Source: Clostridia bacterium (GTDB lineage: Bacteria; Bacillota; Clostridia; Oscillospirales; CAG-272). Taken from it: a stretch of DNA of 59,294 nucleotides. This document shows, piece by piece, positions 33,553 through 42,372 of this stretch (positions are counted from its first letter, which is position 1; each line of letters begins with the position of its first letter). The translations under genes were made by a program, and so were the position numbers. The stretch spans positions 1-59,294 of the forward strand of contig JAFTNJ010000032.1 of NCBI GenBank assembly GCA_017451915.1, in the 5' to 3' direction. The notes below the pieces were generated by a model. That model was not told where the DNA came from and searched no databases. It was given only the letters and a program-made list of their open reading frames with translations.

Positions 33553-35031
33553 TTAATTTGCAAAATAAGCATTGATGATGGTTTGGAATTGGCTTTCTAC
33601 GGCGTTCTGGTTGGTTTCCCAAGTGGAGCTCCAGGATTTGGACTCGTTGGTCAGACATGCGCTGATCAGGGCGTTGGGACGGGTAGCGGTGGTAAAGGCT
33701 ACCGAGTAGAGATAGCAGAAGTCAAAGCCAATGCTCTCACGCACCAGGTCGTACATATCGGCAATACGCTCGTCCTGGGCATAGCGGAGCTTGAGCATGG
33801 ATTCAAAGTAAACGGGGTTGACCTGACGGTAAGCCTCGGATGCCATGCACTCCAGCAGAGCAGTGGAGCAATCCATGCTCTTTACGTTCTTGGGAACGCT
33901 CCACGCCTCGTGGGTGTTACCCAGGTGCGTGTAGTAGCCTTCCTGCTCGGAGGAGCTCTTGGAAACCGGAACCACGCCGTATTCCACCTCGGTCTCCTTC
34001 AGGATTGCGGTCATACCAACGATGGTGGTGTAGAAGATGGCGCGTTCCTCGGTAAACATCTTGGTGTGGGAAGCGTCAAAGAGGCAAACGTCCTGGGTGT
34101 AGAAGGCAGCCTTTACACGGTCCAGATACTCGCCCACAGCGGGCTGACCCAGCAACAGAACCAGATCGCCGTCACCGTTGATTTCGGAGTAACGGTTGCC
34201 CAGAGAGAAGTACCAGCTATCCAGCATGGGGGAGGTGCCGCCGGCACAAAGACCGAAGAAGTCACCCTTATCTACCTTACTGTCGGCGTTCAGATCCTCG
34301 TAGGTATCCTTTACCATGGACATGAGCTTGTCAAAGGTCCACTCGTTTGCGGCTACCAGGTTGTAGGGATTTTCCAGGCCCTTATTTTCCAGATGCTTGT
34401 GGTTGAAGAAGGTAGCGATCATACGCTCCAGCGTACCGTAGCTGCAGCTTTCCACCAAACCAAAGATCTGGTTTTCAAATACGCCGGTTTCAATGTAAGC
34501 GGCAGGCCACCAGGGAGCGGTCAGATCAATGTAGCCCTGCTCGTACAGGTTCTCGCAAAGGCCCTTCATAGCCATGGCGTAGGGGAGCAGGTTGTAGCTG
34601 ATCACGGCGTCGTAGGGATCGCCGGCCTTGTTGGTGGATTCCACCTTGGCAATAAAGGTGTTGCGCTCGTTAAAGGTGCCGGGCTCAAAGATCCATTCGA
34701 TCTCAATGCCCAAACGGTCCTCCACGGTGGCGTTGCGGTCGTAAAGAACGTTGTTGATCATGTCTTCGTTCTTATCCAACGCGTAGTAGTGGTAGTTTTG
34801 CTGCTCGCAGCCCAATACCTTCACCAAACGGTCAAAGTTCAGGTTGTCGGGAATGGCGTCCTCCTGCAGGCCCGTGGTACCGGTTTCCTGAGGTAGGGTT
34901 GCCTGGGCACCGTTGCCCTCGGTGGTGGATGCGGTTCCGCCTCCGGTCTGACATGCGGCAAATACTGCCAGGGTCATGGCAAGGCAAAGCAGACAAAGAA
35001 TCAGTCGGGTACCGATTTGAAGTCGTTTCAT
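33553..35031 (-). CDS. extracellular solute-binding lipoprotein
   Basis: 492 aa; ATG at 35031 with AAGGAGG upstream. The signal peptide ends in the lipobox AVFAAC (C27). The mature part has an SBP type-1 fold, e.g. DPYDAVISYNLLPYAMA (about 140-156), NEWTFDKLMSMVKDTYEDLNADSKV (about 235-260) and an EF-hand-like DxNxDxxxD loop followed by GDFFG. No permease or ATPase gene is nearby, so it is an orphan sugar- or peptide-binding lipoprotein. It has its own promoter. Ligand unknown. Confidence 0.85.
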   Translation of the reverse strand: MKRLQIGTRLILCLLCLAMTLAVFAACQTGGGTASTTEGNGAQATLPQETGTTGLQEDAIPDNLNFDRLVKVLGCEQQNYHYYALDKNEDMINNVLYDRNATVEDRLGIEIEWIFEPGTFNERNTFIAKVESTNKAGDPYDAVISYNLLPYAMAMKGLCENLYEQGYIDLTAPWWPAAYIETGVFENQIFGLVESCSYGTLERMIATFFNHKHLENKGLENPYNLVAANEWTFDKLMSMVKDTYEDLNADSKVDKGDFFGLCAGGTSPMLDSWYFSLGNRYSEINGDGDLVLLLGQPAVGEYLDRVKAAFYTQDVCLFDASHTKMFTEERAIFYTTIVGMTAILKETEVEYGVVPVSKSSSEQEGYYTHLGNTHEAWSVPKNVKSMDCSTALLECMASEAYRQVNPVYFESMLKLRYAQDERIADMYDLVRESIGFDFCYLYSVAFTTATRPNALISACLTNESKSWSSTWETNQNAVESQFQTIINAYFAN

Positions 35032-35068
35032 ACGTATTCCTCCTTTTGGAATCAAGATTCACAGCTCC

Positions 35069-35201: not shown

Positions 35202-37829
35202 TTAACGGAAGGGGGTCTCCCCGTCCGCAAGATAAACGTGGGTACGGAGAATGGCGTAGGTTTGAGAGGGATCGTTTTCGTCCAGGATTCCCAGGTGGGT
35301 CCTTGCCAGCTTGATCAGCATTTCGGGATTGAGGTGCTCTCCCGTTCCCGCGGCAAGAATGGCGCTGATATGGATTCCTTCGGGACGTTGCGGATCGTAG
35401 GTGGCGCGGATCTTGCGGATCAGAGGCGCGATGTTGATCTCCTTTTCCCCCGACTTGGTCTTCTTGATCATAGGAAGCTCGGGGTTTGCATAGAGGGTAT
35501 TGAGAGCGTCGGCCAGGGTTGCATCGGCCTTGGGAAGAGAAAGCTCTATCTCATACTTGGCCCAGCCAATGTCCTGGAATTTACTCGTGGGCTCGTAGGC
35601 ATCGATGACCCGCATTTCATGGGTCAGCTCCCGATTCAGACGCTCCTTGACCTCTGCGCAGGAGATGGCACGGTCGATGCGAAGATCAATGAACTCACAT
35701 TCGCTTTCGGTGCCCACCGAAAGGGGCAGACCAAAGACCACCTTGGCGTGGGGGTTAAATCCCTGCGTGTACCACATGGGAATTCCGGCACGAACCAATA
35801 CGCGGGCAATGGTGCGTTGCAGATCCAGGTGAGAAATGTATTGCAGGTTGCCCACCTTGCGGAAGGCAATGCGAACCGTTTTGGGGGTCTCCAGCTTGGG
35901 CCAGGTCGGGCTTTGCAGAATCGGCGCGGGAGGATTCTCCGCCACAGGCTCCTTGGCCGAGGGACAACCGGGACAAACGGCGCGTTCTCCGCCCAGCTTG
36001 TTGGCGCCGCAGGCCGAGCATTGCTCGCGGCAGTTGGGGGTGGTGGAGGCGGCGTAGGCCTTTTTGCGCTCCCGCAGGAAGAATTCCTTGCTGACGCCGC
36101 AGTCAATGATATCCCAGGGCAGGATCTCGTCCTCCCCAAAGGCGCGGTTGGCGTAAAAGGCGGGATCAATGCCGCAACGAGCAAGGACGTCCAGCCACTT
36201 GTCGTAGTCAAAATATTCGTCCCAGGCGTCAAAGCGGAAGCCCTCGCGGCAGGCAAGCTCCAGGGCGTCAGCCAGGCGTCGGTCACCGCGAGCCAATACC
36301 GCCTCAATGCGGGAAACCTTGGCGTCGTGGTGCTGATAGCGTACGTGACGGCTCTTGATCTTGGTCTTGAGATATTCCTGCTTTTCCGCCAGCATCTCCA
36401 TGGTATCCTGCGCCTCCCATTGGAAGGGAGTAAAGGGCTTGGGAATAAAGCAGGAGACGCTGACCGTGACCTGCACGGGGCGGGATTTGTTGCGATTGGG
36501 ATTTTGATAGTAGGCGTCCACCACCTTCTCGGCCAAAAGGGCAATGCCCTCAATGTCCTCGGGGGTTTCGGTGGGCAGACCGTTCATAAAGTAAAGCTTG
36601 ACCGCGTTCTTACGGGCGTCGAAGGCCACGTTCACGGCGCGGAGCACATCCTCCTCGCGCACGTTCTTATTGATCACGTCCCGCAACCGCTGGGTACCGG
36701 CCTCGGGGGCAAAGGTCAGGGAGGAGGAGCGCACCGATTCAATGCGCTTCATCAAATCCTTGTTAAAGTTGTCTACACGCAGGGAGGGGAGGGAAAGGCT
36801 GACCATGTGCTCGTCGGTCCAGGAGAGGAGCTTGTCGCACAGGGGCTCAAGCTCGGTGTAGTCGCTGATGGAGAGGGAGGAGAGGGAGATCTCCTCGTAG
36901 CCCGTGGCGTTGAAGAGTTGCTGTGCCTGGCGGTTGAGGACGTCGGCGGATTTTTCCCGCACGGGACGGTAGATCATACCGGCCTGGCAGAAGCGACAGC
37001 CACGGATGCATCCGCGGTAGACCTCCAGCATGATGCGGTCATGGACGGTCTCAATGTAGGGCATGACCAACTGGTCGGGGAAGGACACTTGATCCAGATC
37101 CTTGATGATCTGCTTGGTGACCTGCCGGGGGATGTCGTCGTACAGGGGCGCGATGGCGGCGATGGTGCCGTCCTCCTTGTAGGTTACCTCATACAGCGAG
37201 GGAACGTAGACCCCGGGAATGTTTTTGGCGGCCTCGTGGAGGAAGCCCTGGCGGGTGTAGGTGCCCATTTCCTTCATTTGGATGTAGAGGCGAACGATGG
37301 CGGGGAGCATATCCTCTCCTTCGCCGATGTTAAAGAGATCAAAGAAGGGAGCCACGGGCTCGGGATTGTAGGCGCAGGGGCCGCCGCCAATGATCAGAGG
37401 GGCGTCCTCCCCACGGTCGGCGCTGCGCAGAGGAATGTTGGCCAGATCCAGCATATTGAGCACGTTGGTATAGCTCATTTCGTACTGGAGGGTAAAGGCG
37501 ACGAAATCGAACTCCCCGAGGGGATCGCCGCTTTCCAGCGCGGTCAGGGGTAGGTGGTGCTCCTTCATCTTCTCCTGCATATCCACCCAGGGATCGTAGG
37601 CACGCTCACACCAGATGTCATCGTGCCGGTTCAGGGAGTGGTAGAGGAGACGCACGCCGAGATTGGACATACCGATCTCGTAGGTGTCGGGGAAGCAGAA
37701 GGCAAAGCGGGCCTTGATTTTGGACTTGTCCTTTAAGATCTGTCCGTATTCTCCGCCGGCGTAGCGTCCGGGCTTGGAGATCGATTTCAGCAGAGTGCTG
37801 TTGGGGCAGGTTGTAGTTTTGGAATTCAT
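35202..37829 (-). CDS. radical SAM protein, TIGR03960 fused to TIGR03936/DUF2344
   Basis: 875 aa; ATG at 37829 chosen because GGAAAGG lies just upstream. The N-terminal part has a B12-like fold and the radical SAM motif C274-x3-C278-x2-C281 (YRGCIRGCRFCQAG). A Cys-rich linker (about 604-625: CREQCSACGANKLGG) is followed by the DUF2344 domain (from about 645: VRIAFRKVGNLQYISHLDL, GFNPHAKVVFGLPLSVG). This two-part fusion is typical of Clostridia. It is probably an RNA- or protein-modifying enzyme; function unproven. Third gene after rlmB and the P-type-like gene. Confidence 0.88.
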   Translation of the reverse strand: MNSKTTTCPNSTLLKSISKPGRYAGGEYGQILKDKSKIKARFAFCFPDTYEIGMSNLGVRLLYHSLNRHDDIWCERAYDPWVDMQEKMKEHHLPLTALESGDPLGEFDFVAFTLQYEMSYTNVLNMLDLANIPLRSADRGEDAPLIIGGGPCAYNPEPVAPFFDLFNIGEGEDMLPAIVRLYIQMKEMGTYTRQGFLHEAAKNIPGVYVPSLYEVTYKEDGTIAAIAPLYDDIPRQVTKQIIKDLDQVSFPDQLVMPYIETVHDRIMLEVYRGCIRGCRFCQAGMIYRPVREKSADVLNRQAQQLFNATGYEEISLSSLSISDYTELEPLCDKLLSWTDEHMVSLSLPSLRVDNFNKDLMKRIESVRSSSLTFAPEAGTQRLRDVINKNVREEDVLRAVNVAFDARKNAVKLYFMNGLPTETPEDIEGIALLAEKVVDAYYQNPNRNKSRPVQVTVSVSCFIPKPFTPFQWEAQDTMEMLAEKQEYLKTKIKSRHVRYQHHDAKVSRIEAVLARGDRRLADALELACREGFRFDAWDEYFDYDKWLDVLARCGIDPAFYANRAFGEDEILPWDIIDCGVSKEFFLRERKKAYAASTTPNCREQCSACGANKLGGERAVCPGCPSAKEPVAENPPAPILQSPTWPKLETPKTVRIAFRKVGNLQYISHLDLQRTIARVLVRAGIPMWYTQGFNPHAKVVFGLPLSVGTESECEFIDLRIDRAISCAEVKERLNRELTHEMRVIDAYEPTSKFQDIGWAKYEIELSLPKADATLADALNTLYANPELPMIKKTKSGEKEINIAPLIRKIRATYDPQRPEGIHISAILAAGTGEHLNPEMLIKLARTHLGILDENDPSQTYAILRTHVYLADGETPFR

Positions 37830-37895
37830 AGGATCTACCTTTCCGGTGACATACACATACCGCGAGCGCAGAGGCTTCGCGGCAGAGGTGCAGAT

Positions 37896-40800
37896 TTATT
37901 TTTTGAGATGAAGCTTTTTGTCGGTCAGCTCCGCGTGGCAGGCGATCAGGGTGACCAGGGTCCAGAAGAACTGATACAACAGGATCTGCCAAGGCCCCAC
38001 GGCCGCTGTTTTGCCCAGCCAGGTCAGCAGCAGAAGGGACGCCAGACCGAGGATCGAGGCGATCAGCTGCATCCGCCAGGAGAAGCGACGTAGCTTTGCA
38101 ACGCCGTTGGCAGCCAGGAGCACTCCCACCAGCTGGGCGGGATCCTCGGTGCTCACGGCACCGGTGTCGCACAGAGGCTGGGTGGTGTTTTCCTCGTAGC
38201 GGCCGGGCTTGATGACCCGAATGGGAATGGCCTTGGGACTGCGGGAGGACTGCAAAAAGCCGTCGTTGAGGTTGGGATCGTAGGAGCGAATGGCCAGCGT
38301 GGTGCTGCACTCGGCAAGATGCTGTGCCATTTGCTCAAAGGAGGTCTTGCAGGTGTATTCGATCTCATAGCTCAGCTTCAGAGTGCCGTCAATGGCTACG
38401 TGCATCAGGCTGACGTTGGGGGTGCGGCGGGTAACGCGATCGGTGCTTTCCTTGGGAATCCGTACGCCACCCTTTTTCAGGAAGGCGGCACTTCCGGCCA
38501 GCACGTGGCACTTTCCAACCGTGGCCTCCACACCCGCGTCGGTGATGCGGACCAGGGTTACGGGAATATCCGCAGTCTGCTTGGAGCAGGCCTGTCCAAT
38601 GGGATCCAGGGTACTGCCGATCTTGCGGAAGAGGGCAGACGCCAGCTTGATGTCATTTTGGAAGTCGTCGTTTTCCCGAATCACGATCTCGGTGCATTTT
38701 TCGGTCAGGAACATATCCTTATCCTCAAAGATCACGGTTTTGGGACGGTTGTATTCCTCCACCGATTCCTCCCCTACCAGGGTACATCCGTAAAAGGCCA
38801 GCAGACGTCCGGCGCGGAAGAGGGGGTACACGTAGCCCACCACCGCCGCCAAGGGGGTGCAGGCCAGGAGCGCGATTATGCAAAGGGAGATTACGGAGGA
38901 GGCCTCCTGCAGGAGCAGGGCTCCGGCAAAGGCCAGGAGGAAGGGAACGGCGAGCATGGCCGCAATCAGAACGGTAAAGGGACGCGCGGCATCGTCCATA
39001 AAGTTGCAACGGCGGAAGAAGCCGGTGGTATCCTTGGCCGCACTCACACGGTACTGGGGATTTCCGTCTCCGGTGTGGATCAGCTTTACGATCTTGGTGC
39101 CCTGACGCATTTTTTGCTTTCGGGGGGCACTTTCCTCCAGCACGTATTTTTCGCCCTCCCGGGACAGGATCCGGAAGGAGCGCATCTGCGCGGAAATGCG
39201 GAACACGTCACACAGACAAAGGGAGAGAAGGGAGAGGGAGGACAGGAAGTTGACCAAAAGGGAAGGCAAGGGGAGGCCGAGGGCGATCCCATCGTAAACC
39301 AGGGTGAGCAGGAGCAGGACGCCACACACCGAATAGGGCGTGGGAGCCATGCGAAGCCAGGCGCGAAATCCCGCAAGGCATTGCTTATAGGAGAGCGCGG
39401 CGGCTCCCAGAAGCAACAGAATGGAAAGAATGGGAAGGATCAGCGGGGAGATGGCGCGGATCTGATCTCCGTAAGCTCCCAGGGCGTTGGTAGGCTCCAC
39501 AAAGAGCAGGAGCAGGGAACAGAGGGCGGTGAGGGCAACTCGCAGGATCAGGCGCTTGCGGTCGCGGGAGAAGGCGGCCAGTACGCCGGCACGGTCGGTG
39601 CTTCCCACGTATTCCTTGCCCCGATAGCCAAAGGCCGTGGGGTAGGAGCCCTTTTCCTTTTCCCGAAGCTTTTGCAGATGCTGACTTTTCAGAATTTTCA
39701 GATTTTCATTGCCCACCAGAGTGCGGAGCTCGGTATCGTAGCCCAGATCAAAGAGCAGATCCAGGTCTTCCTCGCTCAGTCCTGCCTTTTGGCAGATCTC
39801 CTCGGCGGGGGTCATCACAGGCCTTGCGGTGGGGGGCGTCTTTCCTTTGGCGGGAGAAGTCGCCTCTTTTTTTACCGCAGGAGAAACGTAGACCTCCTCG
39901 GAGAGGTTTTCTTCCATTGCCTCATCCAACAGCTCGGTGTCCTCCGTAGGAGGCAGAGGCTGGGGGGCGGGACGGGAAAAACGATCCTCTTTCTTGGGGG
40001 GGAGGGTTACGTTGGGACGCTTGGACGAGGGCTTGCCGCTTGCCGCGGGGGCGGTAGCCGCTGCGGCGCGGGGCGCGGTGGATTCTTTTTTGGTGGGCGG
40101 GGTCGATTCCCGCGTTGGGGTGGGGGTGCTCACGCGCGCGGTCGCCTCCTTTCCAATACGAATGGGTGATTGTTTTTCTTTGGTTTCGGTTACTTTTTGG
40201 GGCACGGGGACGGTTTTTTCTACCGTGCGGGGACGGATTACGATGCTTTCCTGCTTTGGCAGGTTGGTTTTGGGGGGACGGATCACAATGGGCTCCGCAC
40301 CCTTTTTACCCACAGGAGACGCAGTCTTTTGCGGTGTGGGGGACGGCTCCTGTACCGGCGAGATCGACGGAACAGGTTCCTTGTGTATCCTCGGCGGCTC
40401 GATTGGCTCTGCGGGGAGAGGAGCCTCCTCGGCTTGCGGTAGGGGAACTTCCTCCACGGTGGGAGGGGGCGTTTGCGGTACTTCTTGCACGGGGGACACA
40501 GGAGGCTCCTCCGAGGGCACGGACATAGCCATGGGAGGTTCCTCGGCAGGCTCCTCTGGGATAGGAGCGGGAGGCGTTGGAGGGAGTTCCGGTGTTGCTT
40601 CGCCGGGGGAAGGCTCCAAAGCTTCTTTGGTCGGGCGAGGCGTTGCCTCGGCTTTTTTCTTGGCTTTGGAGGATTTTGGACGGGGCTTTGGAGGTGTTTC
40701 CTCCCTTTGGGGCGTCGGTGCCTCCGGGGGAGCGATCTCCTCGGCCATCTTCTCCGCGGGTTCGTCGATCGGTTCCTCTACGGGGTCCTCAACAGGAGCT

Positions 40801-41015
40801 TCCGCCGGCTTGGAGGCTTGCTTCTTCTTGGCTTTTTTGGGAGCCGAGGCTTGTCCCAGCATACTGGCAAGCTTCTGTTGAAATTCGACGTCGCCGGTGT
40901 CGGCTTCTTCGACCTTCTTCTTTTCGGCTCCTTTTTTGTCCAACTCGGGAAAGGTCGCCTTGAGCTTGCTCAGCAGCTCGGAGATCTTATTTTGCTCTTG
41001 GTTCTTTTTGCTCAT
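37896..41015 (-). CDS. degenerate P-type-ATPase-like membrane protein with long Pro-rich N-terminus
   Basis: 1039 aa. Residues 1-400 are Lys/Glu then Pro-rich and disordered. A small helical domain follows (402-455, AGLSEEDLDLLFDLGYDTEL). Membrane spans lie at about 488-507, 522-542, 562-580, 582-604, 680-702, 706-733, 982-1000 and 1009-1027. The core after C719-T-P721 follows the P1B-ATPase order: AGRLLAFYGCTLVGEESVEE, then VIFEDKDMFLTE (761-772) aligns with V-V-F-D-K-T-G-T-L-T-E, keeping D765-K766 but not T-G-T. STLDP replaces S-E-H-P; TVGKCHVLAGSAAFL and VAIDG match the nucleotide/actuator region; no T-G-D or G-D-G-x-N-D motif is present. A catalytically dead or altered transport-like sensor is inferred. 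Confidence 0.7.
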   Translation of the reverse strand: MSKKNQEQNKISELLSKLKATFPELDKKGAEKKKVEEADTGDVEFQQKLASMLGQASAPKKAKKKQASKPAEAPVEDPVEEPIDEPAEKMAEEIAPPEAPTPQREETPPKPRPKSSKAKKKAEATPRPTKEALEPSPGEATPELPPTPPAPIPEEPAEEPPMAMSVPSEEPPVSPVQEVPQTPPPTVEEVPLPQAEEAPLPAEPIEPPRIHKEPVPSISPVQEPSPTPQKTASPVGKKGAEPIVIRPPKTNLPKQESIVIRPRTVEKTVPVPQKVTETKEKQSPIRIGKEATARVSTPTPTRESTPPTKKESTAPRAAAATAPAASGKPSSKRPNVTLPPKKEDRFSRPAPQPLPPTEDTELLDEAMEENLSEEVYVSPAVKKEATSPAKGKTPPTARPVMTPAEEICQKAGLSEEDLDLLFDLGYDTELRTLVGNENLKILKSQHLQKLREKEKGSYPTAFGYRGKEYVGSTDRAGVLAAFSRDRKRLILRVALTALCSLLLLFVEPTNALGAYGDQIRAISPLILPILSILLLLGAAALSYKQCLAGFRAWLRMAPTPYSVCGVLLLLTLVYDGIALGLPLPSLLVNFLSSLSLLSLCLCDVFRISAQMRSFRILSREGEKYVLEESAPRKQKMRQGTKIVKLIHTGDGNPQYRVSAAKDTTGFFRRCNFMDDAARPFTVLIAAMLAVPFLLAFAGALLLQEASSVISLCIIALLACTPLAAVVGYVYPLFRAGRLLAFYGCTLVGEESVEEYNRPKTVIFEDKDMFLTEKCTEIVIRENDDFQNDIKLASALFRKIGSTLDPIGQACSKQTADIPVTLVRITDAGVEATVGKCHVLAGSAAFLKKGGVRIPKESTDRVTRRTPNVSLMHVAIDGTLKLSYEIEYTCKTSFEQMAQHLAECSTTLAIRSYDPNLNDGFLQSSRSPKAIPIRVIKPGRYEENTTQPLCDTGAVSTEDPAQLVGVLLAANGVAKLRRFSWRMQLIASILGLASLLLLTWLGKTAAVGPWQILLYQFFWTLVTLIACHAELTDKKLHLKK

Positions 41016-41047: not shown

Positions 41048-41941
41048 TCAGGGCTCGGGATGATGCTGACGTGCCGCCTCGGCCAGAAGGATGGCGGCGG
41101 CGGTGGACACGTTAAAGGAATTGACCTGCCCGTACATGGGGATCGAAACAATGGCGTCGCAGGTCTTTTGCACCAGTTGAGAGACGCCGTTGCCCTCGCT
41201 GCCAAGGACGATGGCGCAGGGACCCTTAAAGTCGGTCTTATAAACACTGGTTCCACCGGCTTCGGCCGCAAAGGTCCAAACTCCGGCTTTCTTCAGCTGC
41301 TCCACCGTGGAGGCAATGTTTGCCACCTTGGCAATGGCAAGGTGCTCCACCGCACCGGCAGAGGCCTTGGTGACCAACGGGGTGAGGCCAACGGCGCGGC
41401 GCTTGGGGATGATCAGTCCGTGGGCACCGCAACACTCGGCGCAGCGAATGATGGCACCCAGATTGTAGGGGTCGGTAATGCCGTCACAGATCACGATCAA
41501 AGGCGCTTCGCCCCGATCGGCGGCGATTTGCAAAATGTCCTCTACCGCGCAGTATTCCTTTTCGGCGGCAAAGGCGATGATGCCCTGGTGGGGGGCGTAG
41601 CCCGCCAAGGAATCCAGCTTGCTTTTTTCGGTTTCGATTACCGGGATCCCGCGCTCAATGGCCTGGGCGACCAGAACCACAATGGAGCCGGTCCGCTCTC
41701 CCTTTTGCACCAGGATCTTGTCAATGGTGCGCTCGGCCTTGAGGAGCTCGCGCACGGCGTTGCGGCCAATGACCGCGCCGTTTTCGTATTCGCCGTGAAT
41801 TGTGCTCGATTCCTCGGCGGGAGCGGGATCGCGCGGGGCGTCAGGACGACGCTTTTCCCGGGCGGGCTTGTCGTAATATGTATTGCGATGGTTTTGCTTG
41901 GAGGCGTCCCGGCGTTCGGGGCGTTTTCTTTTTTCATTCAT
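41048..41941 (-). CDS. rlmB: 23S rRNA (guanosine(2251)-2'-O)-methyltransferase, TrmH family
   Basis: 297 aa. A basic, disordered N-terminus (1-48), a substrate-binding domain (VIGRNAVRELLKAERTIDKILVQKG, 57-81) and the SPOUT catalytic domain with ICDGITDPYNLGAIIRCAE (about 149-167), AIVLGSEGNGVSQLVQK (about 242-258) and IPMYGQVNSFNVSTAAAILL (about 266-285). It methylates a ribosomal guanosine in the cytosol. It leads a unit with the P-type-like and radical SAM genes (gaps 32 and 66 nt). Confidence 0.92.
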   Translation of the reverse strand: MNEKRKRPERRDASKQNHRNTYYDKPAREKRRPDAPRDPAPAEESSTIHGEYENGAVIGRNAVRELLKAERTIDKILVQKGERTGSIVVLVAQAIERGIPVIETEKSKLDSLAGYAPHQGIIAFAAEKEYCAVEDILQIAADRGEAPLIVICDGITDPYNLGAIIRCAECCGAHGLIIPKRRAVGLTPLVTKASAGAVEHLAIAKVANIASTVEQLKKAGVWTFAAEAGGTSVYKTDFKGPCAIVLGSEGNGVSQLVQKTCDAIVSIPMYGQVNSFNVSTAAAILLAEAARQHHPEP

Positions 41942-42237
41942 AGTTTTTCATCCTCTTGTTTCGGGGAAATGATGGGATACGTCCATTCCTATCCATTATA
42001 CCATGAAAAATCTTTTTTGTACATATTCTTTTGAAAAAAACTTGTGGGGAAAGGAGGTTTTTCTTTCGACGAAATGCGACCAAGCGGTTTGAAAAGTGGC
42101 GAGAAGGGGAGAAAAAAGGCAAAAAATAGCAGAGAGGGAAAGAAAAGGGGAGCGAAGAAGGGCGCAGAAAAGCGGCCTTTGTCTGAACGTTTTTGAAAAA
42201 AGCTTGAAAAAAACAAGAAAAAGTTTGAAAAAAAGGC

Positions 42238-42280: not shown

Positions 42281-42372
42281 GGAGAGATGGCTGAGCTGGT
42301 CTAAGGCGCACGACTGGAAATCGTGTGTGCGGTAATCCCGTACCGAGAGTTCGAATCTCTCTCTCTCCGCCA
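42281..42372 (+). tRNA. tRNA-Ser (anticodon GGA)
   Basis: 92 nt including an encoded CCA. Acceptor GGAGAGA pairs with TCTCTCC, the anticodon loop is ACTGGAAAT giving GGA (reads UCC/UCU), there is a long class II variable arm, and the T arm is GAGAG-TTCGAAT-CTCTC. The length and variable arm fit serine. Confidence 0.95.

Follow-up and report, generated by a model that had tools for sequence, protein, structure and literature searches.

Why would a bacterium keep, directly behind the gene for an rRNA methyltransferase, a membrane protein that resembles a metal pump and lacks the catalytic motifs of one? The question is raised by an open reading frame (ORF) at positions 37896 to 41015 (minus strand) of contig JAFTNJ010000032.1 from a Clostridia bacterium (assembly GCA_017451915.1); the whole analyzed stretch of 59,294 nucleotides is referred to here as the window. 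From the ORF, its homology, and its predicted fold, we describe the 1039-residue product, hereafter X, as a pseudo-P1B-type ATPase. By sequence comparison, X is homologous to P1B ATPases, its catalytic motifs are lost in all relatives compared, it is under purifying selection, and it is linked to rlmB. The reading that we favor, with moderate confidence, is that X is a catalytically dead P1B-type ATPase derived from a CopA-like pump and kept throughout its order, which we take to be the Oscillospirales, as a membrane scaffold or sensor in an apparent operon with rlmB.

Homology and predicted fold of X

Pfam gave no match in the window protein, including none to a heavy-metal domain, and its P-type models do not detect X. 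TIGR01525 (heavy-metal P-type ATPase) matched residues 671 to 901 at 5.8e-5, far below its cutoff. With 30 relatives of X, the HMMER match to LpCopA reached 1.2e-13, indicating a P1B relation beyond chance; together with hhalign and the fold comparison, this bore out the P1B-like order of elements that an earlier note on this DNA had read from the letters, and it ruled out a chance resemblance. By descent and fold, X thus belongs to the P-type ATPase superfamily, with homology over the membrane (M), phosphorylation (P), and nucleotide-binding (N) domains.

The membrane helices of P1B ATPases are named MA, MB, and M1 to M6, and the predicted structure of X has all eight, in agreement with this plan. 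Helices MA, MB, and M1 to M4 (residues 489 to 740; positions 38796 to 39551, minus strand, as for all features of X below) were assigned by hydropathy and predicted structure, and the C-terminal pair M5-M6 (residues 975 to 1035; positions 37911 to 38093) by predicted structure, strict hydropathy finding only the first of the two. Hydropathy counted eight helices in 79 of 136 loci (range, 5 to 10) and, under a stricter threshold, seven in the window protein. The earlier note would have given up its idea had the fold lacked P, N, and actuator (A) domains. Instead, the eight-helix body of X is predicted to carry P and N domains together with a small remnant of the A domain; the shortened A-domain region lies between about residues 605 and 680 of the window protein, and the median length of the corresponding loop is 74 residues in X versus 134 in ATPases (136 loci, duplicates included).

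Catalytic and metal-site motifs

P-type ATPases are phosphorylated on the aspartate of DKTGT and carry TGD and the GDGxND hinge as further motifs; TGES belongs to the A domain, and SEHP and a glycine loop serve the ATP site. Using MAFFT, we aligned 110 distinct X sequences with 21 intact ATPases and counted the residues at each of these motifs. The window protein contains the stretches GEESVEE, VIFEDKDMFLTE, GSTLDP, and VAIDG, the second of which (residues 761 to 772; positions 38700 to 38735) replaces DKTGTLT. DKTGT, and with it the phosphorylated aspartate that defines a P-type ATPase enzyme, was found in 0/110 X sequences. The earlier note had taken D765-K766 for a surviving catalytic pair, a claim that proved to be off by one: HMMER, MAFFT, and hhalign (consensus) all pair the phosphorylated Asp with E764 and the Lys with D765, ruling out D765 as the phosphorylated residue. 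Across the family, the first of these columns holds Asp in 50 and Glu in 19 of the 110 sequences, and the second holds Asp in 90 and Lys in none; the DKTGT glycine is present in a single sequence.

TGDN is replaced by SYDPNL (residues 911 to 916; positions 38268 to 38285), in which the Asp is kept in 109/110 sequences, and the Thr column is Thr or Ser in 97/110. Both Asp columns of the GDGxND hinge are gaps in all 110 sequences, with a single Gly left in one, and MAFFT and hhalign agree for the family that this segment, which would precede DTGAVS (residues 950 to 955; positions 38151 to 38168), is deleted. No TGES was aligned in any of the 110 sequences, the loop being aligned with less certainty, and the only TGES strings among them lie in the N-terminal tail of L017 (residue 70) and of its copy L073. 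At the ATP site, the SEHP histidine occurs in 0/110 sequences and the first Gly of the glycine loop in 13/110. As the earlier note had seen in the window, T-G-T, the T-G-D context, and GDGxND are lost, and this is so in every relative compared; none retains the DKTGT that would have told against the note's idea. X keeps G841 (110/110), Y887 (106/110), and a Trp at W1018 in the last helix (104/110). Where the old motifs stood there are now the strings F-x-D-x-x-x-F-P, TxDPNI, and DSGIVS, which are best conserved in the window's family.

Alternatively, the P domain might have become a different enzyme of the HAD type, with D765-x-D/E767 serving like the DxD of HAD phosphatases. The pattern is present in 82/110 sequences, and the Thr or Ser at the TGD column would fit such an enzyme. 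However, 28/110 sequences lack it, the motif III lysine (21/21 in the ATPases) is Lys in only 2/110 X sequences, and motif IV is the deleted GDGxND segment, so that we consider this conversion quite improbable.

The metal site gave a mixed picture. The C-T-P that the earlier note had placed in a membrane span is indeed there, as C719-T720-P721, and P721 (positions 38853 to 38855) occupies the position of the CPx proline in M4, which is kept in 100/110 X sequences, but a Cys occupies the two cysteine columns in only 2/110 and 4/110 sequences, and the CPx metal site is thus not conserved. Even with no phosphoenzyme, X might still use its pump body to move something through the membrane or inside it, as a passive metal channel or as a lipid or helix chaperone. 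Conservation of the eight-helix plan, the M4 proline, and W1018 would be compatible with this, whereas the near absence of the CPx cysteines, and the presence of P1B pumps above the family cutoff, besides X, in 41/41 family genomes tested, make it unlikely.

Taken together, X resembles P1B ATPases such as CopA (LpCopA, 3rfu; TIGR01525) in helix order, P and N domains, CPx proline, TGD aspartate, and the N-domain glycine G841. It differs from them in lacking DKTGT, an aligned TGES, GDGxND, the SEHP histidine, and conserved CPx cysteines, and in having a shortened A domain, a long variable tail, and, in the window protein, no Pfam heavy-metal match. According to a survey (PMC3896382), DKTGT characterizes P-type ATPases and is found in 99.77% of them, and 22 of 9,634 carry a changed DKTGT, through single point changes. 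Like the exceptions described there, X has no intact DKTGT, but it has lost the whole catalytic set, in a family spread across an order. In the open subset of PubMed Central, we found nothing on such a dead P1B family.

Selection, distribution, and linkage with rlmB

The core of X is under purifying selection. Among 44 pairs of relatives whose cores are more than 68% identical, the ratio of nonsynonymous to synonymous substitution rates (dN/dS) was 0.025 to 0.18 in the 42 pairs with finite dS (for example, 0.007/0.276, 0.017/0.478, and 0.246/1.368), many pairs having dS above 1 and two being saturated. Together with the residues conserved across the order, this excludes that X is a pseudogene; with its catalytic residues lost and the protein under selection, X has the marks of a pseudoenzyme. 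It is found in 97/98 genomes of the window's family, covering 69/69 genera; a count of 98/98 does not hold, because what matches in genome G095 is an ATPase in which DKTGT, TGES, and GDGxND are all intact. A profile gave a match in 143/147 genomes of the order, the weaker of these matches possibly being ordinary ATPases, whose scores ran up to about 71 bits. Outside the order but within the class, all 21 fetched P-type matches carry DKTGT. A scan of the phylum at E 1e-19 matched 4/299 genomes, three from the order (including the window's) and one with an ATPase carrying DKTGT; it missed the diverged G115, and more diverged relatives may exist outside the order.

In the window, rlmB, encoding 23S rRNA (guanosine 2251-2'-O) methyltransferase (TIGR00186, 2.3e-65), lies at 41048 to 41941 (minus strand), 32 bp upstream of X. 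A consensus scan found a promoter-like site, TGTACA-17-TATAAT with TG before the second hexamer, upstream of rlmB (41995 to 42023, minus strand) and none on the minus strand of the rlmB-X gap; such a site is a consensus match and not evidence of function. A gene for tRNA-Ser(GGA) (42281 to 42372, plus strand) is divergent from rlmB. A TIGR03960/TIGR03936 radical SAM fusion gene (35202 to 37856, minus strand) follows 39 bp downstream of X, placing the three genes on one strand. Downstream of it, a 500-residue ORF with a lipoprotein-like start (33553 to 35055, minus strand) gave no hit in Pfam or NCBIfam at E values up to 1 and has relatives in four other fetched loci.

The earlier note had seen X as fixed between these two neighbors, and half of this placement is conserved. 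Linkage was counted on fetched loci only, picked among genomes with a match to X. The order contributed 40 fetched loci, each with a match, which represent 22 families and leave out the window's own. In 39 of them, rlmB was directly upstream of X; in the fortieth (L142, family f22), X is broken into two ORFs, the first of which comes after rlmB. This split X (L142:4164-6557, plus strand) reflects either a sequencing error or decay. Among 48 further loci known by organism name (Clostridia, Oscillospiraceae, Ruminococcus, and others; family codes not given), rlmB was upstream in 45, the remaining three ending at a contig edge. In all, the pair was found in 84 distinct loci, L115 and L122 being one contig. 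The radical SAM gene, in contrast, follows X in 29/48 named loci (17 do not have it, and 2 reach the contig end) and in 0/40 order loci (2 reach the contig end), which rules it out as a fixed partner. Apart from rlmB, X has no constant neighbor; in 11/40 order loci, an EF-G-like gene is found a short way downstream. That X serves only the expression of RlmB, by translation coupling or as a passenger in the rlmB operon, would be in line with the finding that X comes right after rlmB wherever a fetched locus extends far enough. The purifying selection on the core and the residues conserved across the order show, however, that the protein itself matters, and we hold this to be highly improbable.

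A possible origin of the pair is offered by family f40, outside the order. Of 28 rlmB loci fetched from the class outside the order, with no more than 1.5 kb of downstream sequence each (shorter in a few, e.g., L212), a single one, from an f40 genome, has a P-type gene behind rlmB. In 3/3 f40 genomes, an intact CopA begins 1 to 9 bp after the rlmB stop (L227:4592-7567, L228:6287-9263, and L229:7179-10173, plus strand). Like X, this P1B ATPase stands right after rlmB on the same strand, but its catalytic motifs are intact and its N terminus is, by eye, of the heavy-metal type. In the ATPase tree, X forms one clade (27 rows, support 100/100). The free tree joins this clade, on weak support (89/45), to three other ATPases; when X was constrained to group with the f40 CopA, the log-likelihood rose by 4.46 over that of the free tree (p-AU, 0.628). 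In the rlmB tree, f40 and the order do not group, and constraining them to do so lowered the log-likelihood by 15.29 (p-AU, 0.173), which counts weakly against such an origin. Descent of X from an f40-like rlmB-CopA pair is attractive, and the ATPase tree neither shows nor rejects it.

A second pseudo-P-type ATPase, Y, was found in family f19 directly upstream of rlmB (L156:10554-12761 and L157:10571-12778, minus strand; L139:4191-6638, plus strand). Like X, Y is a P-type homolog beside rlmB without DKTGT, TGES, or GDGxND (5/5 f19 genomes), but it is related to Mg/Ca-type ATPases (TIGR01524, 8.7e-18) and lies on the other side of rlmB. P2-type ATPases from the window's genome, with their motifs intact, served as controls. 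Y adjoins rlmB in all five f19 genomes, and X lies behind rlmB in the three that were fetched further, with coordinates agreeing in the other two, so that in f19, rlmB stands between two dead pumps of different kinds. Strong Y matches (above 500 bits) were confined to the 5/5 f19 genomes, with none in the other 112 scanned. Of the 30 loci from this search, the 25 that are not Y encode P2-type ATPases with DKTGT except for two. L165 (family f23) has DKTGV for DKTGT, TGEI for TGES, and GNGLDD for GDGxND and is possibly another pump losing its motifs, while L185 (G035:C9, from the window's family) is a P2-type homolog lacking all three, with no rlmB match beside it, and is perhaps a third, independent dead pump. 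Degenerate P-type ATPases have thus arisen here more than once.

The N-terminal tail and the role of X

Residues 1 to 400 of X (positions 39816 to 41015) form a tail rich in Pro, Glu, and Lys. The 400-residue Pro-rich tail described by the earlier note is a feature of the window protein (19% Pro), of its genus (11 to 19%), and of some other families, but elsewhere the tail is for the most part acidic and varies in length; in relatives, it evolves faster than the core. Near its start lies a short helix motif, SELLSKL in the window (residues 12 to 18; positions 40962 to 40982) and DDILAEF or DELLRQL in relatives. It was found in 67/105 X sequences versus a mean of 11.8 and a maximum of 21 after shuffling, a descriptive comparison, since the pattern was derived from the same sequences. 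The motif was rejected as a shared address tag: a strict DNA pattern had five matches in 59 genomes, all linked to X and, by coordinates, 0.5 to 1.1 kb upstream of its core match, and most X genes do not match this strict pattern either.

Because P1B architecture, motif loss, and the placement behind rlmB are all kept, a conserved role for X is likely and ATP-driven pumping is not. X probably forms no phosphoenzyme and does not pump, as judged from its sequence, and its conserved placement suggests a so far unrecognized nonpumping job. Of the nontransporting role proposed in the earlier note, the unlikelihood of pumping by ATP holds up, while the choice of sensor, scaffold, or regulator stays an inference. 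In our favored reading, X would be anchored in the membrane as a scaffold or sensor, the motif on its flexible tail would dock a cytosolic partner, and the P/N head would bind a protein or ligand and pass its state to the membrane helices.

Several points weigh against this reading. The scaffold or sensor role is drawn by analogy with other pseudoenzymes, and the linkage with rlmB may mean shared regulation only. Tail and motif are missing in family f10 (three sequences, L128, L129, and L155), and G095, a genome of the window's family that is 82% complete, shows no X. Finally, an Asp is found at 764 or 765 in 104/110 sequences and, given also how frequent D765-x-D/E767 is, acid chemistry of another kind may take place there.

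The apparent rlmB-X operon points to, without showing, a link with ribosome maturation. More speculatively, and we think this rather doubtful, rlmB and X would be a clade-defining unit in which a dead metal pump has become a membrane signaling or scaffold complex that couples the maturation of ribosomes to the condition of the membrane; equally conjectural is that a second dead pump of another subclass takes part in this unit in one family. Since the whole catalytic set has been lost while selection has stayed strong, the X family shows that the body of a P-type pump can be retained for another purpose, and its linkage with rlmB and its N-terminal motif offer direct handles for finding the partner of X.
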